Part shown: in pieces, positions 4,621 to 62,317 of the stretch
Numbering within the stretch: position 1 is the stretch's first letter
Layout: every line of letters starts with the position of its first letter
NCBI RefSeq assembly: GCF_016862995.1
Contig: NZ_BOOA01000045.1
Span: 1 to 64,000 of the forward strand
Reading direction: 5' to 3'
From: Acrocarpospora phusangensis
GTDB lineage: Bacteria; Actinomycetota; Actinomycetes; Streptosporangiales; Streptosporangiaceae
DNA length: 64,000 nucleotides
Position numbers and translations under genes: made by a program
Notes under the pieces: model-generated
Seen by the model: only the letters and a program-made list of their open reading frames with translations
What the model was told of the DNA's origin: nothing
Database searches by the model: none

Positions 4621-5178
4621 ATGGGGTCGCCTTCCAAGCCAGCACGCGCCCGGCGTGCCGCCGTCGCTCCCGCGGTGGCAGCCGCCGTGTGGGCGGGGGC
4701 CTCCGGATGCGGGATCGTGGGCGGTGGTTCGCCCGCGGACCTCGACGTGATCAGCGTGTCGAGCCCGCAGTTCCGGGACGGCGACCCGCTGCCGCACGGC
4801 TACTCCTGCCGGGGCGGGATCGGCAATCCGCCGCTCCGCTGGTCGGGGACGTCGGGCGCCAAGTCGGTGGCCCTGGTGGTCGACGGCAACGACTCGCGCG
4901 ATGGAGCGGAGGTGCACTGGGTCGTGTACAACATCGATCCGGAAACCACCGAACTCGGGGAGAACACGGTGCCCCGGGGAGCGCGGCAGGGTGCGACGAC
5001 TAGCGGAAAAGTCGGATATGTGCTCCCTTGTCGTGCCGATGACAGTTACCGTTTCACTGTCTATGCCCTCGACGCGAAACTGGATCTTCCGGCGGGTGCC
5101 CCCCTCTCGGAGAGTCTGGAACGCATCGCGGAGCACACCATCGCACGTGGACGGCTCACAGCGACCAACATCCAGTGA
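4621..5178 (+). CDS. YbhB/YbcL (PEBP)-family lipoprotein
   Basis: 185 residues from ATG 4621. A basic N-terminus, a short Ala-rich hydrophobic stretch and GASGC near residue 30 form a plausible lipoprotein signal, so the protein is probably tethered outside the membrane. The body is a phosphatidylethanolamine-binding-protein fold: FRDGDPLPHGYSCRGG, NPPLRWSG, then HWVVYNIDP with the ligand-pocket His, and YRFTVYALD near the end. Bacterial members are small secreted or periplasmic proteins of unclear ligand. An in-frame ATG at 4591 would lengthen the N-terminus by 10 residues; neither start has a strong ribosome site. It appears to be a single gene. Confidence 0.8.
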   Translation: MGSPSKPARARRAAVAPAVAAAVWAGASGCGIVGGGSPADLDVISVSSPQFRDGDPLPHGYSCRGGIGNPPLRWSGTSGAKSVALVVDGNDSRDGAEVHWVVYNIDPETTELGENTVPRGARQGATTSGKVGYVLPCRADDSYRFTVYALDAKLDLPAGAPLSESLERIAEHTIARGRLTATNIQ

Positions 5179-5361
5179 CATGCTGAACACCGGAGGTAAT
5201 AGTGCCGAACCAATCTTCGCCTAGGGTGTGACAACGGTCATTGTGGTCAAGCAGAATCGGATCCAATTGCTGAGCGCAGGTGAACGAAGGGGGCAGGTCG
5301 CGTCGATGGCCGCGCGATCTCACCGGCGCCGCTGGAAGGCCATGGCCTTGAGGGTGGTGCT

Positions 5362-6879: not shown

Positions 6880-6918
6880 TTTTCCCCGCGCTTGCGCAGG
6901 TCAGGCTGGTGATTGCCG

Positions 6919-6924
6919 TACAGT
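6919..6924 (+). promoter_or_regulatory. Possible -10 box for leaderless SulP transcript
   Basis: TACAGT ends six bases before ATG 6931 and no ribosome site precedes that ATG. In actinobacteria a TANNNT box at this distance often marks a leaderless mRNA. No -35 match lies at 16-18 bases, so this is weak. Confidence 0.3.
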
Positions 6925-6930
6925 CGCGGC

Positions 6931-46622: not shown

Positions 46623-48452
46623 ATGCGGCCACAGGATCTGGCAGCCGATCGCCTACTGACGGAACTGGACGTCTCCCCGGACGGCTCCCTGGTCGCGGTC
46701 ATCGAGCGGCGGGTCGTGCGCGGCCGGGAACACCACCGGCTGCTCGTGGTCCCCACCTCGGGCGGCCGGGTCAGGGTGCTCGCTCCCGAGGCGTCGCTGC
46801 CCCGCTTCTCGCCGGACGGCCGTACCGTCGCGTACCTGGTGAAGGAGCAGCTCCACACGCGGCCGGCGCACGGCGGGGCCGCCACCAAGGTCACCTCGTT
46901 CCCGCGCGGCGTCGTGGACTACGCCTGGCTCGGCTCGTCGTTCCTCGTCCTGGCCCCCGACCAGGATTCTCCGGTCATGTCCGGCGGTTCGGTGGCCCGG
47001 GTGATCCGCCGCCTGGACTGGCGCGAGGACGGCCACGGCCTGCGGCTGCACCCCACCCACCTGCACGTGCTGTCTCCTGACGGGACCGCGCTGCGGCTGA
47101 CCTCCGGTGAGTGGTGGGCGTCCGGCCCGCGGATCTCCCCCTGCGGCACGAAGGCCGGCTTCATCGCCGACCCCCGCGAGGACGCGGACCTCGACCCCAA
47201 CCCCCAGGTCTACGAGGTGCCGCTCACCGGCGGGCCGATCTCGCTCGCCAGCTGGGTGGCAGGCCCGGTCACCCGCTTCTCGTACGACCCGGACGGGAGC
47301 GTCGTCTGCGTCGCGGCCCCGTCGCGCCGTCCGACCGACTTCGAGAACGAGCAGCTCTGGCACAACGTCCCCGGCCGGCCGCCGGTGTCGCTCACCGGCC
47401 ACCTCGACCGTTTCTCCGGGCAGGCGCCGACCACGGACGAACGCCTCACGGTCACCTGCGACAACGGCCGGGAACCGGCCCAGCACGTGACCGGTGACGG
47501 GATCGCCGACCTGACGCCCGCGCGGCTCGACCCCGTCGTGCACGCGCTGGCCGCCGCCGGCGGCGTGGTGTGCGCGATCGCGAGCCTCGGCGGCGCGGCC
47601 CGCCCCGACCTGTACCGGCTCGCCCCGGACGGCGACCCCGAGCTGCTGTTCCGGTCCGGCTCCGCCTGGCTGTCCGGCTTCGAACCCCCGCTCCAGCAGG
47701 AACTGGAGATCGGCGGCATCCAGGTCTTCCTCGTCGGCCCCCAGACGGACGGCCCGCTCCCGGTGGTGCTCCAGCTGCACGGCGGCCCCGCCTGGGCCTG
47801 GCCGGTCGAGCCCGACCTCGACGCCCTGCTCCTGGCCGCCGCCGGCTTCCTGGTGGTCCGCCCCAACATCCGCGGCTCCTTCCACCGCGGGTACGCCTTC
47901 GGCGCCGCCCTCGGGGGCGACTGGGGCGAACCCGACGCCGAGGACTGCCACACCGTCCTGGACGGCCTCGTCGCCCGCGGCCTGGCCGACCCCGCGCGGA
48001 TCGGCTGCTACGGCAACTCGTACGGCGGCTTCCTGACCAACTGGCTGATCGGCACCTCCGGCCGGTTCGCGGCGGCGGTCAGCCAGAACGGCGTCACCAA
48101 CCAGGTCTCCGGCTTCGCCGCCTGCGACCTGGGCGCGATCTACGACGTGGACTCGGGCCTCGGCGACGTCTGGACCCCGGAGGGCGTCGAGCACCTCTGG
48201 AAGATCTCACCGCTCCGCCACGTCGGCGCCATCACCACCCCGCTCCTGCTCCTCCAGGGCGAGCAGGACCACCGCTGCCCGCCCTCCGACGCCGAGCAGA
48301 TGTTCGTCGCCCTGCGCCGCCTGAACCGCACCGTCGAGTACGTGCTCTACCCCGACTCCGACCACTCCCTGGCCCACACCGCCCGGCTGGACCGCAGGAT
48401 CGACCGCGCCGAACGCATGATCGCCTGGTTCCGCACACACCTGCTCGGCTAG
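46623..48452 (+). CDS. Prolyl oligopeptidase family (S9) serine peptidase
   Basis: 609 residues. ATG 46623 follows GGGAGGAC. The N-terminal half is a beta-propeller-like region with repeated SPDG and RFSPDG strands. The C-terminal half is the hydrolase: nucleophile Ser466 in GNSYGG, Asp in QGEQDHRCP and His in SDHSLAHT. It resembles acylaminoacyl/dipeptidyl peptidases, which cut small peptides in the cytoplasm. Being divergent from a dipeptidase-like amidohydrolase operon, it may supply that pathway. Its TAG shares the CTAG at 48449-48452 with the converging GH43 stop. Confidence 0.92.
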   Translation: MRPQDLAADRLLTELDVSPDGSLVAVIERRVVRGREHHRLLVVPTSGGRVRVLAPEASLPRFSPDGRTVAYLVKEQLHTRPAHGGAATKVTSFPRGVVDYAWLGSSFLVLAPDQDSPVMSGGSVARVIRRLDWREDGHGLRLHPTHLHVLSPDGTALRLTSGEWWASGPRISPCGTKAGFIADPREDADLDPNPQVYEVPLTGGPISLASWVAGPVTRFSYDPDGSVVCVAAPSRRPTDFENEQLWHNVPGRPPVSLTGHLDRFSGQAPTTDERLTVTCDNGREPAQHVTGDGIADLTPARLDPVVHALAAAGGVVCAIASLGGAARPDLYRLAPDGDPELLFRSGSAWLSGFEPPLQQELEIGGIQVFLVGPQTDGPLPVVLQLHGGPAWAWPVEPDLDALLLAAAGFLVVRPNIRGSFHRGYAFGAALGGDWGEPDAEDCHTVLDGLVARGLADPARIGCYGNSYGGFLTNWLIGTSGRFAAAVSQNGVTNQVSGFAACDLGAIYDVDSGLGDVWTPEGVEHLWKISPLRHVGAITTPLLLLQGEQDHRCPPSDAEQMFVALRRLNRTVEYVLYPDSDHSLAHTARLDRRIDRAERMIAWFRTHLLG

Positions 48453-49999
48453 ACCGCCCGGTACTCGAACCAGTCGAAGGAGGCCGTGTTCGCGCTCGGG
48501 GCGCCGTTGGAGGTGGCGTAGAGGGCGATCATGGTGCCGATGAAACCGCCGGCGGTGGTGGAGCCGAGGATGCGGCCGTCGGCGGGCGCGCCCAGGTCAC
48601 GCCACTCGTCCGGTTCGAGTGCGTACCGGAACTGGTAGTCCTGGCCGTGGGCCTCGACGGCGAGGTGGACGCGGCCCGCGTCCGCCGCCGCGGTGGCGAG
48701 CAGGGTGTCCTCCCCGGCGGCGCGCCTGATCAGGTCCAGGCCGCGGGTCGAACGCTCCAGCCGCAGCTGGTAGGCGTCGTTCTGGATGAGCGCGAGCCCG
48801 GCGCTCTCGTCGCCCCGCGGCCGGAACTCCAGCACGGTGTGGGCGGCGAAGTCGATGTGCTGCTGGCGGCGGGCGACCAGGCTCGGGTTGGCCCGCTCGG
48901 TCAGCGACTCGGGGCGCAGCCGCAGGGTCAGGCGGCTGTCCGCGAGACTCCAGTACGGGGTGCGCGGCGTGCGGAGGTGGTTCCACTCGGGCGCGAGCCG
49001 TACGCCGTCGAAGTGGTCGCAGGCGGGGCGGGCGGGCCAGCGGCGGGGAGCCAGGGCCGGGGCGGGCATCTCCGGTTCCACCAGGTCGTAGACCGGCCAG
49101 CCGTCCTCCCAGCGCACGCTGGTGAGGAAGGTCTCCCGGCCCAGGTTGTAGCCGCTGTCGGCGCGTACGGCGGCCATGGTGAGGGGGCTGTCGGGGTGCC
49201 CGCCGTACGGGCGGGTGGCCAGCAGGACCGACCACCAGTCGCCGTTCTGGGTCCGCACCAGGTCGGGGTGCCCAGTGCTGGTGATCGGGTGCCGGAGGCC
49301 GAGGTGCCGGTGGGTAAGGATGGGATTGCGCGGGTTGTTCGTGTACGGCCCGGTGATGGCGTCGGCGCGGGCGACCATGACCGCGTGGTCCTCGGCGGTG
49401 CCGCCCTCCGAGGTGAGCAGGTAGTAGCGCCCGTCGACCAGGTAGACGTGCGGCCCCTCCGCCCAGATGCCGCCGCGCTGCACGGGCTCCCAGATGACGT
49501 GCTCCTCGCCGACGAGCTTCATCGAGGCCAGGTCCAGCTCGCGCAGCCAGATCTCGGTGTCGCCGTCGTAGCCTTTGGCGGCCTTCTCGCGGGTCCCGCA
49601 CATCCAGGCGCGCCCGTCGTCGTCGAAGAACAGGGACGGGTCGAAGCCGCCGGCCTCGGGGAACCAGATGGGGTCGCTCCACGGCCCGGCCGGGTCGGTG
49701 GCCGTGACCAGGAAGTTGCCGGGCTCGTCCATGAGCGTCGTGATCATGTAGAAGACGCCGTCGTGGTGGCGGATGGTCGGGGCGTAGATGCCGCCGGACG
49801 GCCGTACGCCGTCGAGGTCGAGCTGGGAGGGGCGGTCGAGCACGTGCCCGAGTTGCCGCCAGTGCACCAGATCCCGGCTGTGGAAGATCGGCACCCCGGG
49901 GAACCACTCGAACGAGGAGGTCACAAGGTAGTAGTCCGCGCCCACCCGGCACACCGAGGGGTCCGGGTGGAAGCCTGGAATGACTGGGTTCGAGAACAT
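48449..49999 (-). CDS. Glycoside hydrolase family 43 beta-xylosidase / arabinofuranosidase
   Basis: 516 residues without signal peptide, so intracellular. The five-blade propeller catalytic residues are visible: Asp13 (GFHPDPS), the pKa-modulating Asp in FDPSLFFDDDG, and the acid Glu181 (WAEGPHVY). A C-terminal beta-sandwich (GH43_C2/XAHS-like, about 320-516) follows, as in subfamily 11/12 beta-xylosidases. It should release xylose or arabinose from imported oligosaccharides. It follows GH10 by 79 bases with a strong hairpin between. Its stop overlaps the S9 peptidase stop. Confidence 0.93.
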   Translation of the reverse strand: MFSNPVIPGFHPDPSVCRVGADYYLVTSSFEWFPGVPIFHSRDLVHWRQLGHVLDRPSQLDLDGVRPSGGIYAPTIRHHDGVFYMITTLMDEPGNFLVTATDPAGPWSDPIWFPEAGGFDPSLFFDDDGRAWMCGTREKAAKGYDGDTEIWLRELDLASMKLVGEEHVIWEPVQRGGIWAEGPHVYLVDGRYYLLTSEGGTAEDHAVMVARADAITGPYTNNPRNPILTHRHLGLRHPITSTGHPDLVRTQNGDWWSVLLATRPYGGHPDSPLTMAAVRADSGYNLGRETFLTSVRWEDGWPVYDLVEPEMPAPALAPRRWPARPACDHFDGVRLAPEWNHLRTPRTPYWSLADSRLTLRLRPESLTERANPSLVARRQQHIDFAAHTVLEFRPRGDESAGLALIQNDAYQLRLERSTRGLDLIRRAAGEDTLLATAAADAGRVHLAVEAHGQDYQFRYALEPDEWRDLGAPADGRILGSTTAGGFIGTMIALYATSNGAPSANTASFDWFEYRAV

Positions 50000-50078: not shown

Positions 50079-53027
50079 TTACTTCGCTAGTTGTAGGACG
50101 CCCCAGCGAGAGGTGTTCACGTAACTCTGTCCGGTCGGGTCGTTCCAGGTCACAGCCGCCGTACGGGCAGGCCCGGTGGCGTCGTTGACCTGGACGTCGA
50201 AGCCGAGGAGCGCGTCCTTGGCCAGCGTGACCGTCGGCAGCTCGATCGCCGCCTCCACGAGGTAGCCCGTCGGGGTGAGCGACACCGCGCTGGTCAGGTT
50301 GTCCCGCACACCGAACGCGTCGAACGTGCCGCCGATCGTCTGGTGGTTGGTGAAGCTGATCCGGTACTGCCCGTCGTCATCGTCGTAGCCCTTGTTCTTG
50401 TTGTTCTCCGGGTCCACGAAGATCTCGACCGAGTCCTCCTCGTACGCGTTGGGCGACTCCTCGCTCAGCACCGGGTCGGTGACCCGGGCCAGGACGTACA
50501 GGGTGCCGTCCTTCCACAGCGCCTTCACCTTGGCGGTCGCGCCCGAGGAGCCCTGCACCCAGGTCCCGGTGGTGATCTCCTGGGCCTTGCTCCACGCGGA
50601 GTCGACGGCGCCGTCGATCACCGGCGCGGTCTTCGCCTTCGGCGCGGAGGTCGTCTTGATCGCCGGCAGCGCGGTGACCGTGCCGTTCCACGAGGTCTCG
50701 GGACCGGTCGCGTCGTCGACCACGACCTTGACGCCGGTGGCGGAGCCGGAGGGCAGCCTGGCCTCCACCCGGTAGCCGGTGGCGCTGGTCCACTTGACGT
50801 CCGCCGTGAATCCGGGCGCGTGCTGGCCGTTCCGCCGGACGCGGTAGTCGGTGCCGCCCACGGTGAAGGTGACCGAGTCGTTCGTGCTGTAGCTGGCGTC
50901 GGACACCTCGGCCAGCACGTACAGCCCGGTGGCGGTGCTGCGCGCCTGGAACCCGGCGGACACGTCGCCGACCCGGGCGATCGGCGCGTCCGGCAGGTAG
51001 TCCCACGCGAGGTCCCGCTTGCCGTCCACCTGGATGCTCGCCGCGGGCGCGTTCAGCTTGCGCAGGAGCGGAGGCAGCTGCGACGGGTCGGCGATGCCCC
51101 AGAACGCGGGCTTGGCCTGGAGTTCGTCGTCGAACGGCAGCGGCGGGTTGAGCCGGGTGATCGGGAAGGTGGACAGCCAGGTGGCGTCGTCGGCCACGCC
51201 CCAGATCGTCACCGAGGACAGCTTCGACGCCTGCCGGCGGAACACGTCGAAGATCTCCTTGTACCGGTACCCCTGCTCGGCCAGCACCTCCGCCGGAACG
51301 GTGGCGTAGCTGTTCACGAAGTCGGTGTAGACGCTCACGTCCAGCTCGGTGACCTGCTGCTCGACACCGAGCTGGGCGAACCGCTCGATGCTCGACTCGA
51401 TCCAGGAGGCGGGCGCCTGTTCGATGTTGACGTGCAGCTGGTGCCCGACGGCGTCGATCGGCACGCCCTCCTGCCGCAGCTGCTTGACCACCTTGAACAT
51501 GGCCTCGCGCTTGCGCGGGAACTCGGTGTTGTAGTCGTTGAAGACGAGCGTCGCGTCCGGGTCCACCTCACGGGCCACCCGGAAGGCGGTCCGGATGTAG
51601 TCCAGACCGGCGATCTCGAACCACGGCGAGCGGCGCAGCCCGTCGGGCTGGTTCTCGTCGATGACCTCGTTGACCACGTCCCAGGTGCCGATCCGGCCCT
51701 TGTAGCGGCCCATCACGGCGCGGATGTGGTTCTCGATGCGCTGGAGCAGGATCTCCTTGGTCGCCCCGGCGAACACCCAGGCGGGCGTCTGACTGTGCCA
51801 CACCAGCGTGTGGCCGCGGAATTCCAGGTCGTTGTCGGTGGCGAAGTCCACCAGCGCGTCGCCCTCGTCGAAGGTGAAGACGCCCTCGGACGGCTCGGTG
51901 GCGTCCCACTTGAGCGCGTTGCCCGGGGTGACGCTGTCGTAGTGCTTGTTGATGAGCTTGGCGTGCTCGCCCAGGGTCGCGCCCCGGTAGAAGGCCGCGC
52001 CCAGCGTGAACGGCACGGTGTCCTTCAGCGACGGGATGTCGGTCTGGATCGGCTTGGGCGCGATGTAGGTCAGCGAGAAGTCGTCGATGTCGAACGGCAG
52101 CGTGCCGGTGTCCGACTCCACGTACGCGCTGAGGAAGTCGATGTCATGGGCGAGCGTGTACGTCCCGGACAGCTTGGTCCACACTCCGGCCGCGATCGGC
52201 GTGGGGGCGGCGACACGCTCGTAGCTGGGCGTGCCGGCCAGCCGGCGCTCGATGGAGAGGCCGAGGTTCTGCGCGGTGGCCGTACGGACCCAGACCTCCA
52301 GGGCGTACTTGGAGCCCTTGGCCATCTTGCCGAGGATGTTGCGGGCCGGGCCGTCCCAGGAGGCGGAGCGGTTGCTGACGGCCAGACCGTACGAGCCGGC
52401 GTGGGCGGCGGCGGTGGAGGCGGCGAGGGTGGCGGAGCCGCGCGGCGCCCAGCCCTGCGCGGCGCCGGTCTCGAAGTCGGTGACCAGGCCGGACTGGGTG
52501 GGGTCGGAGTCGGAGCTGACGACCACGTCGTCGAGGTAGAACGCGACGGTGTCGCCCGAGCTCTCGAAGTACAGGTTGAGCGTGGAGTCCACCGAGAACG
52601 AGTACGCCCCGGAGATCTCCACCCAGGCCGCGTCGGTGACGGTGGCCGCCCCGATGCGCTCGTAGGTGGTCGAGCCGCCCGACGGCGTGCGCTCCATGGT
52701 GAGCGCCACGGTCGAGGACGGCTGGCCGGGCAGCGCCCGCGCCCAGGCCGTCACGTTGTACGTGATCCCCTTCTCGAACGGCGGGGTGATGGAGGTGCCG
52801 TGCCAGTTCGCGGACCTGCCGGTGACCGACAGGGACCGGGCGCCGCCGTGGGCTGCGTCCGCGGTGGTGGCCACGGTCACACCCCCTCCGCGCGGCGCCC
52901 AGCCCCCGGCGCTGGTCTCGAAGTCGTAGCTGGCGATGGTGACGGGGGCGGCCAGCGCCGGGGGCGCGAGCAGCCCGGCTAACAGGCCTAGGAAGGCAGG
53001 GATCACCCAGTATCGGGCCGTGCGCAT
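50079..53027 (-). CDS. Secreted multidomain endo-1,4-beta-xylanase (GH10 with CBMs)
   Basis: 982 residues. A Sec signal peptide (about 1-27) precedes two CBM4_9-like beta-sandwich modules (about 30-175 and 180-325; repeated DFETGAAQGWAPRGS-type starts). The GH10 barrel spans about 335-660, with acid/base Glu454 (WDVVNEV) and nucleophile Glu561 (TELDVS). Two C-terminal DOMON/CBM9-like modules finish the protein (about 680-800 and 805-982). It attacks xylan outside the cell. It is 36 bases after the GH5 gene, so it is read from the LacI-controlled promoter near 54500. Confidence 0.94.
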   Translation of the reverse strand: MRTARYWVIPAFLGLLAGLLAPPALAAPVTIASYDFETSAGGWAPRGGGVTVATTADAAHGGARSLSVTGRSANWHGTSITPPFEKGITYNVTAWARALPGQPSSTVALTMERTPSGGSTTYERIGAATVTDAAWVEISGAYSFSVDSTLNLYFESSGDTVAFYLDDVVVSSDSDPTQSGLVTDFETGAAQGWAPRGSATLAASTAAAHAGSYGLAVSNRSASWDGPARNILGKMAKGSKYALEVWVRTATAQNLGLSIERRLAGTPSYERVAAPTPIAAGVWTKLSGTYTLAHDIDFLSAYVESDTGTLPFDIDDFSLTYIAPKPIQTDIPSLKDTVPFTLGAAFYRGATLGEHAKLINKHYDSVTPGNALKWDATEPSEGVFTFDEGDALVDFATDNDLEFRGHTLVWHSQTPAWVFAGATKEILLQRIENHIRAVMGRYKGRIGTWDVVNEVIDENQPDGLRRSPWFEIAGLDYIRTAFRVAREVDPDATLVFNDYNTEFPRKREAMFKVVKQLRQEGVPIDAVGHQLHVNIEQAPASWIESSIERFAQLGVEQQVTELDVSVYTDFVNSYATVPAEVLAEQGYRYKEIFDVFRRQASKLSSVTIWGVADDATWLSTFPITRLNPPLPFDDELQAKPAFWGIADPSQLPPLLRKLNAPAASIQVDGKRDLAWDYLPDAPIARVGDVSAGFQARSTATGLYVLAEVSDASYSTNDSVTFTVGGTDYRVRRNGQHAPGFTADVKWTSATGYRVEARLPSGSATGVKVVVDDATGPETSWNGTVTALPAIKTTSAPKAKTAPVIDGAVDSAWSKAQEITTGTWVQGSSGATAKVKALWKDGTLYVLARVTDPVLSEESPNAYEEDSVEIFVDPENNKNKGYDDDDGQYRISFTNHQTIGGTFDAFGVRDNLTSAVSLTPTGYLVEAAIELPTVTLAKDALLGFDVQVNDATGPARTAAVTWNDPTGQSYVNTSRWGVLQLAK

Positions 53028-53063: not shown

Positions 53064-54443
53064 CTACGGGTTCTGCGAGATGTTGTCGGTGAGCAGGTCG
53101 ATGAGGGGTTCGCGGCGGACGCAGCCGGCCAGCGCGAAGGAGTCGGCGAGCGCGATCAGCTCCTCGGGGGAGCAGCCGCGCAGCAGGTCGGCGTACTCGG
53201 GCACGAGCGCCTGCGCGATGAGGATGTGCCGGACCAGGTCGTCGATCTGGTAGCGGGCGCCCCACGGGTAGGGGTTCCAGGACGGGAACTCGGTGTCCAT
53301 GAGCCGGTGCAGCGGCGCCAGGTCGCTGGCCGACTCCTCCATCGTGGAGCCCCAGCGGTCGGCCCCCAGCCGATGCTTCTTCTGGATGAACGTCCCGAAC
53401 CTCTCCATGTACGGCCCCGCGGCCCCCACCAGCCCCTGCAGCCCGACGTCCTTGTAGGTCCAGATCGACCAGCCGGCCCCGTGCGCGTCGAAGATCTCCA
53501 GCTGGTCCCTGAGGATCTGGTACCGCTGCGCGTCGGTCTCGGGGTCGCCGGTGTAGACGGGCCCGAACTCGCCCACCCAGATCGGCGTGCCGGTCTCCCG
53601 CTGGAACGCGGTGCGCTTCTCGAAGGCCCGCTCCAGCTGGTCCCTGTCCACCCACTCGCCCCGCGTGTACCCCGGGTACGGCCCGCCGTGCGCGAAGCCG
53701 GCCAGCGCGTAGTCGTGGCAGACGAACACCGTGTTCTCGTACACCTCGCGGAAGATCGAGAAGTCGGTGGAGTAGGTGTTGCCGTCCAGGAAGAGCACGT
53801 GCCCCGGGTCGACCGCCCGGATCGCCTTGACCAGCCGGTCGTAGTACGGGCCGACCACCTGGCCGCGCACGTCGCCGGGCTCGTTGATGGGGTTGTAGCC
53901 CGCCACCCACGGGTTGTCCTTGTACCGGTCGGCGATGGCCTCCCACAGGTGCACGGCCCGGTCCTGGAAGGTCCGGTGCTGCCAGAAGGCGGCCACGTGC
54001 GTGGGGTTGTCGCTGTGCCAGTGCTGGTTCTGCGAGCCGGGCAGCGCGTGCAGGTCGATCACGCTGTAGATGCCCCGCTCGGCGAGGAGCGCGATCACCC
54101 GGTCCAGGTGCTTGAAGCCCTGCTCGATGATCTCGAACGGCTGGTCGTCGGCCTCGAAGTGGTGGTAGTTCACGGGGATGCGCACGCAGTTGGTGCCCAT
54201 GTCGCGGAGCAGGTCCGCGTCGGCGGCGTCGAAGAACGACGTCAGCAGCCGGTCGAAGAATATTTCATAACGTTCCTCGCCCAGCGCGTCCAGGACGGCC
54301 AGGCGCATGGCCGATTCGTTGGCCGAATAGCCGGTGATGAAGTTCTCCATGTTCAGCCAGCCACCGAGACCGACGCCCCGAAGTCGTACCGGCCGTCCGG
54401 AGGAGTCGGTGAGGTGGGATCCGGTCACGCGCAAGTCGGGCAT
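53064..54443 (-). CDS. Glycoside hydrolase family 5-like endoglucanase/glycosidase
   Basis: 459 residues from ATG 54443 after AGGAG. No signal peptide is seen, which is odd for a polymer-degrading enzyme. RGVGLGGWLNMENFITGY opens the barrel, the acid/base is Glu188 (YNPINEPG) and the nucleophile Glu292 (WVGEFGP); HAL, HDY and WTYKD are standard GH5 positions. It could act on xylo- or gluco-oligosaccharides inside the cell. It is the first gene of an operon with the GH10 xylanase and has the paired LacI operators in its leader. Subfamily not certain. Confidence 0.88.
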   Translation of the reverse strand: MPDLRVTGSHLTDSSGRPVRLRGVGLGGWLNMENFITGYSANESAMRLAVLDALGEERYEIFFDRLLTSFFDAADADLLRDMGTNCVRIPVNYHHFEADDQPFEIIEQGFKHLDRVIALLAERGIYSVIDLHALPGSQNQHWHSDNPTHVAAFWQHRTFQDRAVHLWEAIADRYKDNPWVAGYNPINEPGDVRGQVVGPYYDRLVKAIRAVDPGHVLFLDGNTYSTDFSIFREVYENTVFVCHDYALAGFAHGGPYPGYTRGEWVDRDQLERAFEKRTAFQRETGTPIWVGEFGPVYTGDPETDAQRYQILRDQLEIFDAHGAGWSIWTYKDVGLQGLVGAAGPYMERFGTFIQKKHRLGADRWGSTMEESASDLAPLHRLMDTEFPSWNPYPWGARYQIDDLVRHILIAQALVPEYADLLRGCSPEELIALADSFALAGCVRREPLIDLLTDNISQNP

Positions 54444-54460: not shown

Positions 54461-54491
54461 TGAAAGTTTCGGATGTCAACCGAATATTTCG
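54461..54491 (-). promoter_or_regulatory. Paired LacI-family operators in the GH5 leader
   Basis: TGAAAGTTTCG (54461-54471) and CGAATATTTCG (54481-54491) match the inverted pattern CGAAANTTTCG at all or most positions. Centres are 20 bp apart and both lie downstream of the -10 box. CGAA-N-TTCG type sites are known operators of streptomycete BxlR/XlnR xylan regulators. Confidence 0.75.
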
Positions 54492-54499
54492 CAAATCGC

Positions 54500-54529
54500 A
54501 GAATAGGTACCAGGCAGGTAACACGTCAA
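54500..54529 (-). promoter_or_regulatory. Promoter of the GH5-GH10 operon
   Basis: On the minus strand TTGACG (54529-54524), an 18-base spacer and TATTCT (54505-54500) form a good -35/-10 pair. Transcription would start near 54493, immediately before the operator pair. Confidence 0.7.
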
Positions 54530-54576
54530 CAGCTGGTGGGAGCGGTTCACATGCCTATTCGACCTGGGGAAGCGGT

Positions 54577-54598
54577 GCCGAAAGTTTTCGGCTATGAT
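54577..54598 (+). promoter_or_regulatory. lacI autoregulatory operator and -10 box
   Basis: GCCGAAA-GT-TTTCGGC (54577-54592) is a perfect palindrome of the same type as the other operators. TATGAT (54593-54598), one base from the -10 consensus, follows directly. ATG 54606 lies 7 bases after the -10, so the message is probably leaderless and the repressor would block its own promoter. Confidence 0.7.
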
Positions 54599-54605
54599 CC
54601 GTTCC

Positions 54606-55640
54606 ATGCCATCGAAAAGGCGGGTGACAATCGCCGTAATCGCCGAAGAGGCCGGGGTGTCCGTGCCCACCGTCTCCAAGGTCATCAACGGCCGCCCAGA
54701 AGTCGCCCCGGAGACCCGCCAGCGGGTGGAACGTCTCCTTCACAAGCACGGATATCAGCGCAGGGTCAGCCCCGGCGACGGCCCGGTCGGCCTGATCGAC
54801 CTGGTGTTCGCCGAGATAGAGAGCCCGTGGGCGATGGAGATCGTCCGCGGCGCCGAGACCGCCGCTCGCGAGGCCGAGGCCAGCGTGGTGATCTCGGTGC
54901 TGCACACCCACGCGGGTCCCGGCCGGGACTGGCTGGAACGCATCGCCGCCCGCAGGACCGACGGCGTCGTCATCGTCGCGTCGAGACTCTCCACCGGCCT
55001 GCAGGGCCAGCTGAGCGCCCGGTCGATGCCGTTCGTGGTGGTCGACCCCGAGGGCGAGCCCGCCAACGGCGTCGCCTCGGTGGGGGCCACCAACTGGCAC
55101 GGCGGCCTGTCGGCCACCCGCCACCTGCTCGAACTCGGCCACCGGCGAATCGGGATGATCGGCGGCCCCGGCGACATGCTGTGCAGCCGGGCCCGGATAG
55201 ACGGCTACCGGGCGGCCCTGGAGACGGCCGGCGTGCCGGTCGAGCCGGAGCTGATCCGGCACGGCGACTTCCTGGTGGACTCCGGCCACGACCAGGGCCA
55301 CGCCCTGCTGTCCCTGGCCGACCCGCCCACCGCCATCTTCGCCGGGAGCGACATGCAGGCGTTCGGCGTCTTCGAGGCGGCCAGGCAGCGCGGGCTGCGG
55401 GTGCCGGCGGACCTGAGCGTCGTCGGCTTCGACGACCTGCCGCTGGCCCGCTCGGCCTGGCCCCCGCTGACGACCGTCCGCCAGCCCCTGCAGGAGATGG
55501 CCGACCTGGCTACCCGGATGGTGCTGGCGATGGGCCGTGGCGACTCCGCCGAGGCCCGCCGGGTGGAACTCGCGACGGACCTGGTGGTCCGCGAAAGCAC
55601 CGCTCAGCCATCGCTCACCCCTTCGTCGAGCCAGTGGTGA
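54606..55640 (+). CDS. LacI-family transcriptional regulator of xylan utilisation
   Basis: 344 residues from ATG 54606; an in-frame ATG at 54594 lies inside the -10 box. The LacI helix-turn-helix is RVTIAVIAEEAGVSVPTVSKVING (HTH about 8-30, with the hinge region behind), followed by a periplasmic-binding-protein-like effector domain (GLIDLVFAEIESPWAMEIVRGAE to VVGFDDLPLARSAWPPLTTV). It should repress the surrounding GH and ABC genes until a xylo-oligosaccharide binds, as for BxlR. The shared operators at 54461-54491, 54577-54592, 58869-58903 and 60866-60897 support this. Its 3' end overlaps the converging permease gene by 26 bases. Confidence 0.92.
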   Translation: MPSKRRVTIAVIAEEAGVSVPTVSKVINGRPEVAPETRQRVERLLHKHGYQRRVSPGDGPVGLIDLVFAEIESPWAMEIVRGAETAAREAEASVVISVLHTHAGPGRDWLERIAARRTDGVVIVASRLSTGLQGQLSARSMPFVVVDPEGEPANGVASVGATNWHGGLSATRHLLELGHRRIGMIGGPGDMLCSRARIDGYRAALETAGVPVEPELIRHGDFLVDSGHDQGHALLSLADPPTAIFAGSDMQAFGVFEAARQRGLRVPADLSVVGFDDLPLARSAWPPLTTVRQPLQEMADLATRMVLAMGRGDSAEARRVELATDLVVRESTAQPSLTPSSSQW

Positions 55641-56466
55641 GTCCGCCGACGAGGTGGCGCTCGGCCACCGAGTAGAACGCGAGCGCCGGCACCATGGCCA
55701 GAACAACGTAGGCCAGGATGCGGGCCGTGTCCGAGCTGTACTGCCCCTGGAACTGCTGAACCCCGACCGGCAGCGTCCACAGGCCGGGATCGTTGAACAC
55801 GACCAGGGGCAGGAAGAAGTTGTTCCAGCTCCCCACGATCGCCAGCACCGACACGGTGGCCAGCGCCGGCCGCGCCATCGGCAGCAGGATGCGCCAGAAG
55901 AACCCGAACGGCGTGCAGCCGTCCAGGGTGGCCGCCTCCTCGATCTCCCCCGGGATGGACCGGAAGAACTGCCGCAGGATGATGATCGTCAGCGACAGGC
56001 CGAAGGCGGCCTGCGGCAGGATCACGCCCAGCGGGTTGTTCAGCAGCCCGAAGAAGCGCAGCAGGAGGAACAGCGGCAGGATCGCCACCGCGAACGGGAA
56101 CATCAGCCCCGCCGCGAAGACGGTGAACAGGAACTCCCGGCCGCGGAAGGCGAACCTGGCGAACACGAACGCCGCCAGCGCCGAGACTCCGACCGTGATG
56201 AAGGTCGTGGCCAGGGCGATGAACGAGCTGTTCCAGACCTGGATCCAGAAGTCGCCGGAGAGCAGCACGTCGGTGTAGTTGGACGGCACCCAGGGGCTCG
56301 GCAGGCCGATCGGGTTGGTCGACAGCTGCTGGTTGTTCTTGAAGCCGCCGAGCACGCCGTACAGGATCGGGAGCAGGACGAAGATGCCGATCACGATCAC
56401 GACGGTGTGCAGCGCGATCGGCCTGACCACCTGGATGGCGGGCTTGTCCCGCGCGTGTGTGCTCAT
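55615..56466 (-). CDS. Carbohydrate ABC transporter permease, MalG type
   Basis: 283 residues, six predicted helices. ATG 56466 overlaps the MalF-type gene's stop (ATGA). The cytoplasmic EAA loop is IPGEIEEAATLDGCTPFGFFWRILLP, which contacts the ATPase. MalG-family features include the VGGLTTGSTKG C-terminus. No ATPase gene is in the cluster; a shared MsiK-like ATPase from elsewhere would serve, as usual in actinomycetes. The substrate should be xylo-oligosaccharides by context. The 3' end overlaps lacI. Confidence 0.93.
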   Translation of the reverse strand: MSTHARDKPAIQVVRPIALHTVVIVIGIFVLLPILYGVLGGFKNNQQLSTNPIGLPSPWVPSNYTDVLLSGDFWIQVWNSSFIALATTFITVGVSALAAFVFARFAFRGREFLFTVFAAGLMFPFAVAILPLFLLLRFFGLLNNPLGVILPQAAFGLSLTIIILRQFFRSIPGEIEEAATLDGCTPFGFFWRILLPMARPALATVSVLAIVGSWNNFFLPLVVFNDPGLWTLPVGVQQFQGQYSSDTARILAYVVLAMVPALAFYSVAERHLVGGLTTGSTKG

Positions 56467-57494
56467 CGTTTGGCTCGCATGTTGGTGATGGCGCCCTCGG
56501 TGTCGCGGCGCATGACGAATCGCTGGTACCCGATCGCGAACACGAGGCTGAGCAGGAACATCACGACGCTGATGGCGCTGGCGTAGCCGACCTGGAACCG
56601 CTTGAAGCCGAACTCGTACATGGTCACGCCCATGGTCTCGGAGGCGTGCACGGGGCCGCCGCCGGTGAGCACGTAGACCAGGTCGAACAGCTGGATGGTG
56701 CCGATCACCGAGAGGAAGATGGTGATGCGGATGGTGGGGCCGAGCAGCGGCAGGGTGACGTGCCAGAAGACCCGCCACGGGGTGGCGCCGTCGATCTGCG
56801 CCGCCTCGGTCAGCTCGTTGGGGATGGACTGCCGGCCGGCCAAGTACAGGATCATGTGGAACCCGAAGTACTTCCAGGTCATCACGATCATCAGCGAGTA
56901 CATGACGGTGGACGGCTCGGACAGGAAGGTGGACTCCAGCGACTCCAGCCCGACGAAGGCGAGCAGCTCGTTGGCCAGGCCGCGCTCCGGCGAGAGGATC
57001 ATCGTGAACAGCACGGCCGTGATGACCTCGGACAGCACGTACGGCATGAAGAAGAGCAGCCGGTAGAACGCGCGCCCGCGCATCTTCTGGTTGAGCAGCA
57101 GCGCGATGGCCAGCGCCAGCGGCAGCTGGATGACCAGCGAGAAGATGATCAGAAGCAGGCCGCGCCAGAGGTCGCCGAGGAAGACCTCGTCCTCCAGGAG
57201 CCTGGTGAAGTTGTCGAGCCCGATGAAGTTCGTCGGGAACAGGCCGAAGCCGTTCCACTTGAAGAAGCTGGAGTACGCGGCCAGCGCGATCGGCGCCAGC
57301 ACCAGCAGCATGAACAGCACGAGGGCCGGGAGGATGAACAGGACGATCGTCACCCACGCGCGACGCCGACGGGCGGCGGGCGTGCCGCCCGCCGCCGGTC
57401 GCTTAGGTGGGGACGAGGCGACCGCTCCACGCGATCGCGCTCGGGGAGGGGCCGGAGGCGAGGTCGCGCCCTCCGGCCCTTTCGTCGTAGCCAC
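56463..57494 (-). CDS. Carbohydrate ABC transporter permease, MalF/UgpA type
   Basis: 343 residues from GTG 57494. A Pro/Ala/Arg-rich cytoplasmic N-terminus (about 45 residues) precedes six or more helices. The EAA loop is IPNELTEAAQIDGATPWRVFWHVTLP (near residue 220), as in MalF partners. It forms the membrane channel with the MalG-type permease encoded immediately downstream. The preceding binding-protein gene ends 7 bases upstream, so the three are one operon from the promoter near 58930. Confidence 0.93.
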   Translation of the reverse strand: MATTKGPEGATSPPAPPRARSRGAVASSPPKRPAAGGTPAARRRRAWVTIVLFILPALVLFMLLVLAPIALAAYSSFFKWNGFGLFPTNFIGLDNFTRLLEDEVFLGDLWRGLLLIIFSLVIQLPLALAIALLLNQKMRGRAFYRLLFFMPYVLSEVITAVLFTMILSPERGLANELLAFVGLESLESTFLSEPSTVMYSLMIVMTWKYFGFHMILYLAGRQSIPNELTEAAQIDGATPWRVFWHVTLPLLGPTIRITIFLSVIGTIQLFDLVYVLTGGGPVHASETMGVTMYEFGFKRFQVGYASAISVVMFLLSLVFAIGYQRFVMRRDTEGAITNMRAKR

Positions 57495-57501
57495 TACGCC
57501 G

Positions 57502-58794
57502 TTACTCCGACTGTGCCGTCTCGGTGATGGCCTTCACGACCTCTTCGGGAGACTTGGTCCCCGCGATGAGCTCGGCCACGCTGTCGTTGACCTGCTGGCC
57601 GACCGCCGGCGGGTAGGCCTGGTCGAGGTAGAGCTGGAAGTCGGTCGCCTGGGCGAGGGTGTCGGCCACCATCTTGCCGGTACGGCTGGTGACGGCGTCC
57701 TCGGTGCCCTTGATGACCGGGAGGAGCGCGCCGGTGGCGATCTCCTTGCGGTGGTTCTCGGCGGAGAGGATGAACTTCAGGAAGTCCGTCGCCGCCGGGG
57801 GCGCGTCAGCGCCGACCGCGAAGCCGCCGCCGCCGCCGAACGCGTCGGTGGCCGAGCCCTTGCCGCCCTCGACCATCGGGAAGGGGAAGAAGGCGAGGTC
57901 CTCGCCGAGGTCCTTCGCGGTGTCCTTCTGGACGGTGGGCGCCCACTGGCCCATCAGCTCCATGGCGGCCTTGCCGTTGCCCATGGTCGCGGCCTGGCCG
58001 TCGGGGGTGTCGTAGTTGGCGCCGAGGAACCCGTTCTGGAACGGCTTGAGGTCGGCGAGTTCCTTGAGCTTCTGGCCGGCCGCGATGAAGTCGGGGTTGT
58101 CGAACGACTTGGCGGCCGCCGCCTGCTTGAGCGCGTCCAGGCCGGCGATGCGCATCGCCAGGTAGGCCCAGTAGTAGTGGCCCGGCCACTTGGCCTTGCC
58201 GGCGAGCGACAGCGGCGTGATGCCGGCCGCCTGGAGCTTCTTGACGTCGTCGATGAACTCGGTCCAGGTGGCCGGGGGCGCCGTGATCCCCGCCTTCGCG
58301 AACAGCGCCTTGTTGTACCAGAAGCCGACCATGCCGATGTCGTACGGAACGCCGTAGGTCTTGCCGTTCAGCTTGTACGCGGCGGCCGCGGCCGGGGTGA
58401 TGGTGTCGGCCCAGGACGCGATGTCGGCGGTGATGTCCTTCGCGATGCCCGCGTCCGCCTGCTGCTGGAGGACGCCGCCACCCCAGGTCTGGTAGATGTC
58501 AGGGGATTCGCCCGACTGGGCGACGGTCGTCATCTTGGCCTTGAACGCCTCGTTCTCCAGGGCGGTGATGTTGATGGTGACGTTGGGATTCGCGGCCATG
58601 TACTCCTTGGCCATGGCCTCCCACACCGGCTGCATAGGCTCGATGTTCTGAATGTGCCACCATTCGACGGTGACCTTCTCCTGTGCCGCAGCGCTCCCAC
58701 CGGGCGCGGGAGTTTCCTCGCCCGAAGAGCCGCAGCCCGCCAGGAGCAGCGCCGTCGCTGCCAGTGTGACCACTCCGCGTCGAGTTAACGACAT
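57502..58794 (-). CDS. Extracellular sugar-binding lipoprotein of ABC transporter (BxlE-like)
   Basis: 430 residues. The signal peptide has Arg residues at 5-6 and lipobox LLAGC (Cys21), so the protein is anchored outside the membrane. The rest is a family 1 solute-binding protein (VTVEWWHIQNIEPMQPVWEAMAKEY, GKTYGVPYDIGMVGFWYNKALF). Xylobiose-binding BxlE of Streptomyces is the best model. ATG 58794 has a GAAGGGAA stretch upstream. First gene of the operon with both permeases; it carries the LacI operators in its leader. Confidence 0.93.
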   Translation of the reverse strand: MSLTRRGVVTLAATALLLAGCGSSGEETPAPGGSAAAQEKVTVEWWHIQNIEPMQPVWEAMAKEYMAANPNVTINITALENEAFKAKMTTVAQSGESPDIYQTWGGGVLQQQADAGIAKDITADIASWADTITPAAAAAYKLNGKTYGVPYDIGMVGFWYNKALFAKAGITAPPATWTEFIDDVKKLQAAGITPLSLAGKAKWPGHYYWAYLAMRIAGLDALKQAAAAKSFDNPDFIAAGQKLKELADLKPFQNGFLGANYDTPDGQAATMGNGKAAMELMGQWAPTVQKDTAKDLGEDLAFFPFPMVEGGKGSATDAFGGGGGFAVGADAPPAATDFLKFILSAENHRKEIATGALLPVIKGTEDAVTSRTGKMVADTLAQATDFQLYLDQAYPPAVGQQVNDSVAELIAGTKSPEEVVKAITETAQSE

Positions 58795-58868
58795 ATTGGT
58801 GGTTCCCTTCCGTCTAACCGCGGGGACGAGGGGGTCGGGGGCCGCGTCGCCGCCACGGGATCGGTCTT

Positions 58869-58903
58869 TGAAACTTTCGACATTAATCCGATAGTTTCTA
58901 TCG
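58869..58903 (-). promoter_or_regulatory. Paired LacI-family operators before the binding-protein gene
   Basis: TGAAACTTTCG (58869-58879) is a near-perfect copy of the operator. CGATAG-TTT-CTATCG (58889-58903) is a perfect palindrome whose first 11 bases (CGATAGTTTCT) also fit the operator with a few changes. Centres of the two 11-mers are 20 bp apart. Both lie between the -10 box and the gene. Confidence 0.72.
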
Positions 58904-58912
58904 ATGGCGCTG

Positions 58913-58941
58913 AGGTTACATCGGCTTTACCACGGGATCAA
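58913..58941 (-). promoter_or_regulatory. Promoter of the ABC transporter operon
   Basis: On the minus strand TTGATC (58941-58936), a 17-base spacer and TAACCT (58918-58913). Transcription should start near 58906, about 110 bases before the ATG. Confidence 0.65.
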
Positions 58942-59061
58942 CGGTCGTTGTGGAGCTGTTACTCGGCCGGGAACGCTAGGGTTCTGCCGTGATCGACGGA
59001 TATTTCGTAAGTCAACGCGAGATCTCCGATCAGTACGGATCTGGGCAGTGAGGCTGAACCG

Positions 59062-60792
59062 GTGCGCCAGTGGATGACGCTCTTGACCGTGACCCTGGCG
59101 GTCGTCGGTTCGCTTGGCCTTTCCGGCCCGGCCGCCGCCGACTCCGCCATCGAGGAACGGCCCTGTCCCGTTCCGGTGCCCGACGGCACGACCTGCGGGT
59201 TCCTGCTGGCTCCCGAACGCAGGGACGTCTTCGGCAGCGCCACCGTGAAGGTCGCGTACGCGGTGCACCGGGGTGACGGCGAACTGCCCGACCCGGTGGT
59301 CTTCACCAGCGGCGGCCCCGGCTCGGCCTCCGCGCCGCTGCTGAGCACCCTGGTGGACCTGGCCCCGGGCCGGGACGTCGTGGTGATCGAACAGCGCGGC
59401 GGCAGGTACTCCGAGCCCCGGCTGGAGTGTCCGGAAATTGCCAGCGGAATCGTCGCCGGTCTGAAAGGTTCGCGCGCGGAGGAGGTGACCGTGGCCGCCG
59501 CGACGTGCCGCGCCCGGCTCACCGCCGACCTGAGGGGCTACCGCACCCGGGAGATCGCGGCCGACGTGGTGGACCTGCGGCGCTCGCTCGGCTACGCGCA
59601 GTGGAACCTGTTCGGGGTCAGCTACTCCACCCGCGCCATGCTGCTGGCCGCCACGATGGACCCGGAGGGCACCCGCAGCGTCGTCCTCGACTCCTTCCTG
59701 CCCGAGTCCACCCCCTGGTACGACCAGGCCGTGCCGTCGCTGCGCGCCTCGATCGCCAAGCTCGGCGTGGCCGACCGCTTCGACGCGATGATCGCCAGGC
59801 TGAACCGCGTCCCCGCGGTGCTGGACGTCCGCGACCCGGTCACCCGGGCCAAGGTCGAGGTCCATCTCCGGGGCGACGACGTGGCCACCATGATCGGCGA
59901 GGCGCTCCAGGTGAGCGACGTGGTGCCGATCGTGCCCGCGCTCGTGGACGGCGTCGCCGGCGGCGACTACACCCTGCTCGAACCCCTGGCCGACCAGGCC
60001 GCCGACGCCCTCACCAGCCACGAGTGGGGCCAGTACTACGCGGTGCAGTGCCAGGACGAGGCCCCCTCCAACACCTTCGAGGACCGGCGCCTGATCACGG
60101 TGGCCGCGGACGCGGCGGTCTGCGGGCAGTGGCGGCTGTCCAGCTCGACCCCGGAGCAGGCGACCACGGCCGCGCCGGTGCTGGTGCTCGGCGGGCAGTA
60201 CGACCCGACCACCCCGCCGGAGGCCGCCAGAACGGCCGTACAGGCCCTGCCGAACGCCCGCTTCGCGGAGTTCGCCGGGATCGGCCACGGCGTCTTCCTG
60301 GGCAGCCTGTGCGCCCGGCAGACGGTCACGGCGTTCCTGGCCGACCCCCAGGCCGCGGCGCCGTGCGACGCGGCCGCGCCGCCGCACCGGAACGTGCGTC
60401 CGGGCGAGCTGCACCTGACCACGCTCGGCTACACGGCGCTGGGCGCGCCCTGGGTGCTCGCGCCGCTGGGGCTCTTCCTGCTTACCGCCGTCCTCCAGTT
60501 GCTGGGAGGCACGCTGACCGTGCGGCGGGGCGGCGGCTACACCGCGCTGGCCGGTCTGTCCGGCCTCGCCTTCGGCGGCCTGGCCGCGCTCAGCCTGAGC
60601 GGCATGGCCGGCGGCGTGGCCGCGCTCGCCATCGGCGTCCCCACGGCCGTCGTCTGGTACAGCGGGCTCGCCGTCGCCTCGGCCGCGCTGTCGATCGTGG
60701 CCGCCTTCCGGCTCCGCGCCCCGGCGATCAGCATCGTGCCGGCCGCCGTCGGCATCGTCTTCGTCGCTTGGCTGTACGGCTGGGCGCTCTGA
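59062..60792 (+). CDS. Secreted/membrane alpha/beta hydrolase (TAP/proline iminopeptidase-like) with C-terminal helices
   Basis: 576 residues. GTG 59062 has GAGG at 8 bases. A signal peptide (about 1-26) leads to an alpha/beta hydrolase: oxyanion motif SGGPGSAS (near 93), nucleophile Ser187 in GVSYST, Asp in GGQYDPTTPP and His in GIGHGVFLG, ending with a TAP C-terminal-like segment. Four membrane helices follow (about 460-575), anchoring it. Tripeptidyl aminopeptidase-type enzymes of streptomycetes are similar, but the membrane tail is unusual. It sits between sugar-uptake genes without their operators, so its link with xylan use is unclear. Confidence 0.82.
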   Translation: MRQWMTLLTVTLAVVGSLGLSGPAAADSAIEERPCPVPVPDGTTCGFLLAPERRDVFGSATVKVAYAVHRGDGELPDPVVFTSGGPGSASAPLLSTLVDLAPGRDVVVIEQRGGRYSEPRLECPEIASGIVAGLKGSRAEEVTVAAATCRARLTADLRGYRTREIAADVVDLRRSLGYAQWNLFGVSYSTRAMLLAATMDPEGTRSVVLDSFLPESTPWYDQAVPSLRASIAKLGVADRFDAMIARLNRVPAVLDVRDPVTRAKVEVHLRGDDVATMIGEALQVSDVVPIVPALVDGVAGGDYTLLEPLADQAADALTSHEWGQYYAVQCQDEAPSNTFEDRRLITVAADAAVCGQWRLSSSTPEQATTAAPVLVLGGQYDPTTPPEAARTAVQALPNARFAEFAGIGHGVFLGSLCARQTVTAFLADPQAAAPCDAAAPPHRNVRPGELHLTTLGYTALGAPWVLAPLGLFLLTAVLQLLGGTLTVRRGGGYTALAGLSGLAFGGLAALSLSGMAGGVAALAIGVPTAVVWYSGLAVASAALSIVAAFRLRAPAISIVPAAVGIVFVAWLYGWAL

Positions 60793-60827
60793 CCCGACCG
60801 TCCGGCGACCATCCCCCGCGCCACGGG

Positions 60828-60857
60828 TTGACGCGCTTGACCGGCAACATCTACGTT
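60828..60857 (+). promoter_or_regulatory. Promoter of the GH30 xylanase gene
   Basis: TTGACG (60828-60833), 18-base spacer, TACGTT (60852-60857). The start point would be near 60864, just ahead of the operator pair. Confidence 0.68.
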
Positions 60858-60865
60858 ACGTGACA

Positions 60866-60897
60866 CGAAAAGTCTCGGTAATCTTGTGAAACTTTCG
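60866..60897 (+). promoter_or_regulatory. Paired LacI-family operators before GH30
   Basis: CGAAAAGTCTCG (60866-60877, degenerate) and TGAAACTTTCG (60887-60897, close match). Centres about 20.5 bp apart. Same layout as at the GH5 and binding-protein promoters. Confidence 0.72.
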
Positions 60898-60913: not shown

Positions 60914-62317
60914 ATGTCGCGACGTCACAAGGCACTACTCGTTCCGATCCTGGGCTTACCCTTGGCGGGCATCACGCCCGCCGTTGCGGAAAGCGCTTCC
61001 CATGGATCGCGGATCGAGGTGGAACACCGAACGGTTCATCAGAAGATCGACGGATTCGGGATCTCCCAGGCGTTCCGCCGGATGGAGCTCATCGAGCAGC
61101 TCTCGCCGCAGCAGCAGCGGGAGATCCTCGACCTCTGGCTGAGCAGGGAGAAGGGCGCCGGGATCAGCATCCTGCGGCTGGGCATCGGCAGCTCGCCGAC
61201 GGGCAGCCCGTACGACCTCATGGAGTCGATTCAGCCGGTCGACCCCGGCGGCCCCAACGCCACGCCGAACTATGTGTGGGACGGCAAGGACGGCGGGCAG
61301 GTCGCGCTGGCCAAGGAGGCCAAGAAGTACGGCGTGAAACGGTTCTACGCCGACGCGTGGAGCGCGCCAGGCTACATGAAGGACAACGGCTCCGACAGCA
61401 ACGGCGGCAGCCTGTGCGGCCTCACCGGGGTCACCTGCGCCAGCGGCGACTGGCGCGCGGCGTACGCCAAGTACCTGGTGCAGTACGCCAAGTTCTACAA
61501 GCAGGAGGGCATCAAGATCACCGACATCGGGTTCACCAACGAGCCCGACTGGACGGCGACCTACGCCTCCATGCGCTTCACCCCGGAGCAGGCCACCGAG
61601 ATGGTCCGGGTGATGGGCCCGTACGCCCGGCAGGCCGGGCTCAACCTGGTCTGCTGTGACTCCTTCGGGTGGAACGAGTCCAGGGCGTACACGGCGTCGA
61701 TCGAGGCCGACCCGCTGGCGCGGCGCTACGTGGACGTGCACGCCGGGCACACCTACGCCAGCCCGGTGGACGGCCCGCTGCCGACGAACCGGCCGGTGTG
61801 GATGTCGGAGTGGAACCCGAACGGCGACCGCTGGAACGAGAGCTGGGACGACGGCTCCGGCTTCGACGGGTTCACCATCGCCTCGGCCATCCATGACGCG
61901 ATGGCGGTGGGCAACGCCGCGGCGTACGTGTACTGGTTCGGGGCCTCGCGGGGCGCGACCAGGGCGCTGCTGCAGGTGGACGTGCCGAACCAGACGTACG
62001 CGGTGTCCAAGCGGCTGTGGGCGCTGGCCGCGTACAGCAGGTTCATCCGGCCCGAGGCGGTGCGGATCGGGGTCTCGGCCACCGACCCGGCGCTGCGGGT
62101 GTCGGCGTTCCGCAACAAGGACGGCTCCGAGGTGGTCGAGATCCTCAACACCGCCACGACCGCCGTGAACACCACGCTCAAGACGAAGTCCGGCAAGGCC
62201 ACCCTCTACCTGACCGATGGTGGAAACTCGCTGACTCCGACCGCACTGCCCGGCAGGCACGGCCACCGCCCGGTGACCCTGCAGCCGCGTTCGCTCACGA
62301 CGATCGTCGTGAGATGA
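60914..62317 (+). CDS. Secreted GH30 xylanase (glucuronoxylanase XynC-like)
   Basis: 467 residues with a signal peptide (about 1-26). The barrel has acid/base Glu210 (GFTNEPDW) and nucleophile Glu299 (WMSEWNP). IDGFGISQAFRRM and WSAPGYMKDNG are GH30 motifs, and the C-terminal beta-sandwich (about 375-467) is the side domain fused to the barrel. The NEPDW and overall length fit the xylan-active GH30 (subfamily 8/7) rather than the glucosylceramidase type. Codon 15, inside the signal peptide, is TTA. It is controlled by the LacI operators just upstream. Confidence 0.9.
   Translation: MSRRHKALLVPILGLPLAGITPAVAESASHGSRIEVEHRTVHQKIDGFGISQAFRRMELIEQLSPQQQREILDLWLSREKGAGISILRLGIGSSPTGSPYDLMESIQPVDPGGPNATPNYVWDGKDGGQVALAKEAKKYGVKRFYADAWSAPGYMKDNGSDSNGGSLCGLTGVTCASGDWRAAYAKYLVQYAKFYKQEGIKITDIGFTNEPDWTATYASMRFTPEQATEMVRVMGPYARQAGLNLVCCDSFGWNESRAYTASIEADPLARRYVDVHAGHTYASPVDGPLPTNRPVWMSEWNPNGDRWNESWDDGSGFDGFTIASAIHDAMAVGNAAAYVYWFGASRGATRALLQVDVPNQTYAVSKRLWALAAYSRFIRPEAVRIGVSATDPALRVSAFRNKDGSEVVEILNTATTAVNTTLKTKSGKATLYLTDGGNSLTPTALPGRHGHRPVTLQPRSLTTIVVR

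Follow-up and report, generated by a model that had tools for sequence, protein, structure and literature searches.

What is the role of the paired short palindromes that precede xylan-related genes around a LacI-family regulator in Acrocarpospora phusangensis? The cluster lies on contig 45 of a 9.1 Mb genome in 219 contigs, and the window analysed comprises positions 1-64000 of this contig (64,000 nucleotides, nt). According to Pfam matches it encodes glycoside hydrolases (GH) of families GH5, GH10 (with binding modules), GH43 and GH30, an alpha/beta hydrolase, the LacI regulator and a sugar importer of the ATP-binding cassette (ABC) type made up of a binding protein and two permeases. The analysis supports the original prediction as regards a xylan gene cluster linked to LacI, whose operators come in pairs separated by two helical turns. 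We consider it probable (about 0.75) that a BxlR-like LacI repressor controls a xylan-use regulon through these pairs, with two dimers placed on one face of the DNA.

Inspection of the window located every predicted site at its predicted position. On the minus strand, the GH5 promoter shows a -35 box TTGACG (54529-54524) and a -10 box TATTCT (54505-54500) separated by an 18-nt spacer (whole promoter 54500..54529), followed after 8 nt by an upstream operator CGAAATATTCG (54481..54491), with one half altered, and a downstream operator CGAAACTTTCA (54461..54471), with its core intact; both are conserved in orthologs, and their centres are placed 20 base pairs (bp) apart. The ABC promoter, on the same strand, carries TTGATC (58941-58936) and TAACCT (58918-58913) with 17 nt between them (58913..58941), an upstream operator AGAAACTATCG (58889..58899) that starts 13 nt after the -10 box and a downstream operator CGAAAGTTTCA (58869..58879), again with centres 20 bp apart. 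In the GH30 promoter, on the plus strand, TTGACG (60828-60833) and TACGTT (60852-60857) are 18 nt apart (60828..60857), and 8 nt further on the 12-mer CGAAAAGTCTCG (60866..60877), also read in orthologous sequences, precedes TGAAACTTTCG (60887..60897) at a centre distance of 20.5 bp. The predicted spacing of 20-20.5 bp is thus what was measured at all three promoters. The predicted 8-9 nt between the -10 box and the first operator holds for GH5 and GH30, and fits the ABC promoter only if the distance is taken to a longer, 15-bp palindrome, CGATAGAAACTATCG (9 nt). This palindrome was ruled out as the real upstream unit: what relatives preserve is the 11-mer register, at 20 bp to the partner operator, and several of them lack the outer arm.

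A chance origin of the three pairs was ruled out by simulation. With a total of at most four mismatches and any spacing of 12-40 bp, the window holds three pairs, all at 20 bp in the 11-mer register, against a mean of 0.077 in 300 first-order Markov simulations (0.01 at 20 and 21 bp together). Single sites with at most two mismatches number 18, where 9.9 are expected, and none of 100 shuffles reached this count.

A search of 150 family genomes for the LacI protein gave matches at E <= 1e-80 in 104 of them. Leaving aside the own genome, the listed matches with at least 80% identity number 53, from 52 genomes and 20 genera; they form the ortholog set, a further match of 79% being excluded, and 10-14 kb were fetched around each of the 53. 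When pairs facing away from lacI were scored at any spacing of 12 to 40 bp and with no more than two core mismatches in total, 48 of the 53 loci were found to carry one, the best pair lying at 20 bp in 38 and at 21 bp in 10. Scoring the 11-mer at spacings of 15-30 bp gave 46 paired loci (35 at 20 bp, 11 at 21 bp), and block-shuffled regions gave on average 0.1 of 53. The spacing is conserved in orthologous promoters, the point on which the original prediction had staked itself. A TTGAC-like box starts 36-39 nt ahead of the first operator in 44 of the 46 pairs found with the 11-mer, and in most loci a G follows the first operator. The sites, their spacing and order, the promoter geometry and the conservation of all of these are direct observations. 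In many genera it is the importer, not GH5, that is divergent from lacI, with the pair in front of the importer; the comparison indicates that genes are swapped behind a kept promoter, the downstream operon having changed between genera while the operator pair stayed. In L055, L056, L058 and similar loci, either the importer or the GH5 operon is seen behind one lacI-divergent pair, depending on the genus.

Since orthologous promoters share descent, these loci are not independent, and the 20-21 bp could have been inherited along with a conserved promoter block without being required. Two dimers would then bind independently, the pair only raising occupancy. We regard this alternative as rather unlikely. 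It is opposed by the linker between the operators, whose sequence changes while its length stays, and by the same 20 bp at promoters with other sequences. The separate ABC promoter has a 20-bp pair with RGAAANTATCG upstream in all 11 loci, from four genera (one of them, L067, falls short of the pair rule). The gene for GH115, a xylan side-chain enzyme, lies far from the cluster, and a pair at exactly 20 bp was found before it in 10 of 18 loci from five genera. In the own genome this pair is located on C61 (L084 4604-4634, gene at 4662-7781), and the GH115 gene there is probably another member of the regulon, judging by its operators. The GH30 pair was detected by the pair rule in four of seven loci, all four in the genus of the window, and a fifth (L077) was recognized by eye.

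The genome as a whole points in the same direction. The motif GAAASTTTC has 60 occurrences, compared with 5 of the reversed pattern, and pairs with at most three mismatches number 19 at 20 bp, 14 at 21 bp (six of them the same places as 20-bp pairs) and 7 at 25 bp, against 0, 1 and 0 for the controls. With at most two mismatches there are 9, 3 and 1, respectively; the rarity of 25-bp pairs relative to 20-bp pairs (1 versus 9) also argues against independent binding. That every such pair marks a xylan gene was rejected, as one precedes a gene which, by eye, resembles a peptide-synthetase condensation domain. Three further places in the genome were noted. At C24 (L083 13665-13693) TTGACC-18-TACGTT is followed by a GH30-type pair, that strand showing no convincing gene downstream; at C79 (L190, about 7153) a GH10 gene has a second LacI as its neighbour, together with a looser pair at 21 bp; and just past the window, at C45:65192 (L082 5192), a lone GAAACTTTC precedes a GH18 chitinase gene by about 140 bp.

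A closer look at the two copies revealed a difference between them at the lacI-divergent promoter. Mismatches were counted over a core of 9 bp, GAAANTTTC, and the upstream and downstream copies scored 1 and 0 in 44 of the 48 loci, 2 and 0 in two, and 1 and 1 in two, never the reverse. The upstream copy is therefore the degenerate one and never the better. The predicted order of a degenerate upstream and an intact downstream copy holds here in 46 of 48 loci, with two ties and none reversed. It holds likewise at the separate ABC promoter (11 of 11) and fails at GH115, where the better copy may be on either side; a general weak/strong rule was accordingly rejected. The upstream mismatch falls at position 7 of the core in 41 of the 48 loci and at position 8 in 6, so that conservation extends to the altered sequences, CGAAAYATTCG or, on the far side, NTATCG. 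At this promoter the upstream operator has one good half, the promoter-facing CGAAA, and one altered half, and the core of the downstream operator is intact.

Such a conserved deviation, located where the start of transcription is expected, could also mean that the upstream copy is a start-site or early-transcribed element that resembles an operator by coincidence. This is quite improbable, given that both cores are good in GH115 promoters, with the spacing unchanged, and that the half nearest to the promoter is intact in most of the altered copies.

The promoter of lacI itself (gene at 54606..55640, plus strand; probable start placed by alignment and leader) carries a single operator. The 16-base copy GCCGAAAGTTTTCGGC (54577..54592, plus strand, conserved in orthologs) abuts, as predicted, a probable -10 box TATGAT (54593..54598), which lies 7 nt before the ATG at 54606. 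In 52 of the 53 loci CGAAA-(1 or 2 bases)-TTTCG or a near variant lies 1-2 nt before a TANNNT box, and the start codon follows this box by 7 nt in 46 loci and by 5-8 nt in all 52. This distance suggests that lacI is probably leaderless and that the protein probably starts at 54606 (MPSKRR) rather than at 54594. The gap between the half-sites is two bases in 36 loci and one in 16, varying between genera at the same place.

This site also bears on the identity of the binder. The main binder might be another regulator, either a paralog of LacI whose recognition helix is nearly identical or a member of the ROK family such as CsnR, a repressor whose target at a chitosanase gene is a similar palindrome (PMC3048496). 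The genome gave 49 LacI-type matches, of which 30 were read and 26 parsed; four of the 26, including the gene of the window, are preceded by an exact GAAANTTTC and resemble one another in their TVSKV-NGR helices. We nevertheless judge a different binder unlikely, because the sites surround the lacI of the window, with one directly before its own -10 box in nearly all of the orthologous loci, and because the pair remains divergent from lacI when the neighbouring genes change.

The LacI protein belongs to the LacI/GalR family by its N-terminal LacI helix-turn-helix (HTH) domain (PF00356) and its periplasmic-binding-like domain (PF13377), both over their cut-offs. In the alignment, no hinge helix motif of the ARxL type could be found between the HTH and the sensor domain, and, with CcpA and the solved LacI-family chain 5ysz as references, the linker following the HTH is shorter by 3 residues. 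As both domains match, this absence was not taken to exclude the family. The hinge and the central CG have a role in LacI and PurR. Among the parsed LacI-type genes, the 15 with the hinge motif show no exact copy of the core within about 300 bp upstream, and the four genes with such a copy are all among the 11 without it, a comparison of small numbers based on a crude motif scan, in which at least L268 and L275 look misassigned, with the four unaffected. Operators that may or may not contain one more central base at the same promoter, and that have no central CG, would fit a repressor without hinge helices. We put forward only tentatively, as a doubtful though possible explanation, that this LacI represents an actinobacterial branch without hinge helix that reads short A-tract palindromes, whose single sites are weak and are therefore paired two turns apart, lacI keeping one symmetric site. 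In this scenario the half-site gap may be one or two bases, in contrast to the CG-centred operators bent by hinge helices. If so, LacI-type repressors could gain strength and specificity by pairing short sites rather than by one hinge-bent operator, and the built-in weak-strong order at some promoters would sharpen induction.

Returning to the xylan-use regulon as the preferred explanation, a LacI-type repressor of the BxlR kind would govern it as follows. With operator centres 20-21 bp apart, two dimers could occupy the same DNA face, one directly downstream of the -10 box, where transcription is expected to start, and the other within the early transcribed region. The two would jointly block initiation or promoter escape, until xylo-oligosaccharides taken up by the importer release them. 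The lacI gene would be autoregulated through the single symmetric operator next to its -10 box. We infer binding by the LacI of the window, the inducer, the cooperativity and the affinities from the DNA.

Several points weigh against this mechanism. A pair divergent from lacI is missing from five of the 53 orthologous loci, and among the 48 paired ones two or three fit weakly (L069, L080, L064). When the whole 11-mer is scored, 14 of 46 loci have a worse upstream copy, 23 have copies of equal quality and 9 have a better upstream copy, a weaker picture that leaves the degenerate/intact order resting on the 9-bp core. Eight of the 18 GH115 loci show no 20-bp pair in the 400-600 bp read, although several of these eight genes truly begin a few codons ahead of the match; where GH115 has a pair, the order varies. 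Most single sites in the genome are unpaired: of 48 read with their flanks, 20-21 bp partners were seen at GH115, C43 and C79 only. The genome also combines about 60 GAAASTTTC sites with several similar LacI paralogs.

The predicted targets within the window are as follows. GH5, a cellulase-family glycoside hydrolase (53064..54443, minus strand; PF00150), is the first gene of the divergent operon, ahead of the GH10 xylanase with its CBM_4_9 and CBM9 domains (50079..53027, minus; PF00331, PF02018, PF06452). The operon may extend into GH43 (48449..49999, minus; PF04616, PF17851), which is on the same strand and starts 80 nt past the end of GH10. The importer is encoded on the minus strand by the sugar-binding protein (57502..58794; PF01547) and two permeases (56463..57494 and 55615..56466; both PF00528). 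The GH30 gene (60914..62317, plus; PF14587, PF02055) is weakly xylanase XynC-like, its score against NCBIfam NF052681 being far under the cut-off.

How far does the arrangement extend? The exact asymmetric pair was rejected as a feature of the whole class, being found in only 9 of 394 class genomes; these 9, the own genome included, all belong to the 41 genomes of its family, and the 353 others have none. A closely similar pattern occurs in 62 stretches of a genome collection; 47 of them are placed by record name in the family of Acrocarpospora, two come from Streptacidiphilus and Actinacidiphila, and the 13 scattered others are taken for chance matches. In another genus, which we take to be Streptomyces by our own placement, 12 of 16 LacI homologs (59-62% identity) have CGAATGTTTCG and CGAATGTTCCG 21 bp apart upstream; among 14 less similar loci L211 shows a looser pair at 21 bp. 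Three loci (L212-L214) beside a binding protein 60-63% like that of the window look paired by eye. Paired sites are therefore not confined to the family. Loci with such a binding protein carry a LacI of only 49-51% identity, and the closest LacI proteins (59-62%) are encoded beside no such protein or one about 30-34% alike. A generic 20-bp pair was discarded as a feature of this genus, as it is hardly enriched (10 places in 8 of 41 genomes, versus 4 for the control).

Among known systems, several CGAAA-N-TTTCG boxes lie near xlnC-type xylanase promoters of Streptomyces, a likeness to the promoters of the window. The sites of the window also match the CGAA-N-TTCG-type motif of BxlR, the xylobiose-responsive Streptomyces regulator. 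As described in the available text of two papers, BxlR is likewise a LacI-type protein beside a sugar importer and xylan enzymes; its site is CGAAACTTTCG and bxlR deletion raised reporter output (PMC4743123), and a homolog was pulled down with xylanase promoters that share CGAANNTTTCG (PMC12772271). The likeness here is one of family, motif and neighbours; the importer is present, and Pfam identified no GH3 bxlA among the ten neighbouring genes tested. The accessible part of a review (PMC10766802) does not mention BxlR. In the CsnR system (PMC3048496), the gene of a secreted hydrolase also has a palindrome at its start site and a printed construct holds GAAACTTTC, but the regulator is of the ROK family, the palindrome is single and the substrate is chitosan.

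Two operators about two turns apart are also found in double-site LacI regulons such as those of RafR and ScrR. The survey of these regulons, in the portion available (PMC4052901), gives distance peaks at 13, 22 and 32 bp, the latter two read as cooperative; its peak of 22 bp and its palindromes, searched at 14-24 bp, compare with 20-21 bp and 11-12 bp for the operators of the window, and that portion makes no mention of a fixed degenerate/intact order. No description of the asymmetric 20-21 bp pair was recognized in the literature searched, weak evidence of novelty since the original BxlR and xlnC papers lie outside it. For many genera of one soil actinobacterial family, the analysis provides a testable map of xylan control, comprising operators, spacing, promoter geometry and targets. 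In comparison with these systems, the paired-site arrangement is known in kind from the double-site LacI regulons and the motif is known for Streptomyces BxlR, and the details that appear to be new, as read from the sequences compared, are the conserved asymmetry of the pair and a LacI protein without the usual hinge motif.

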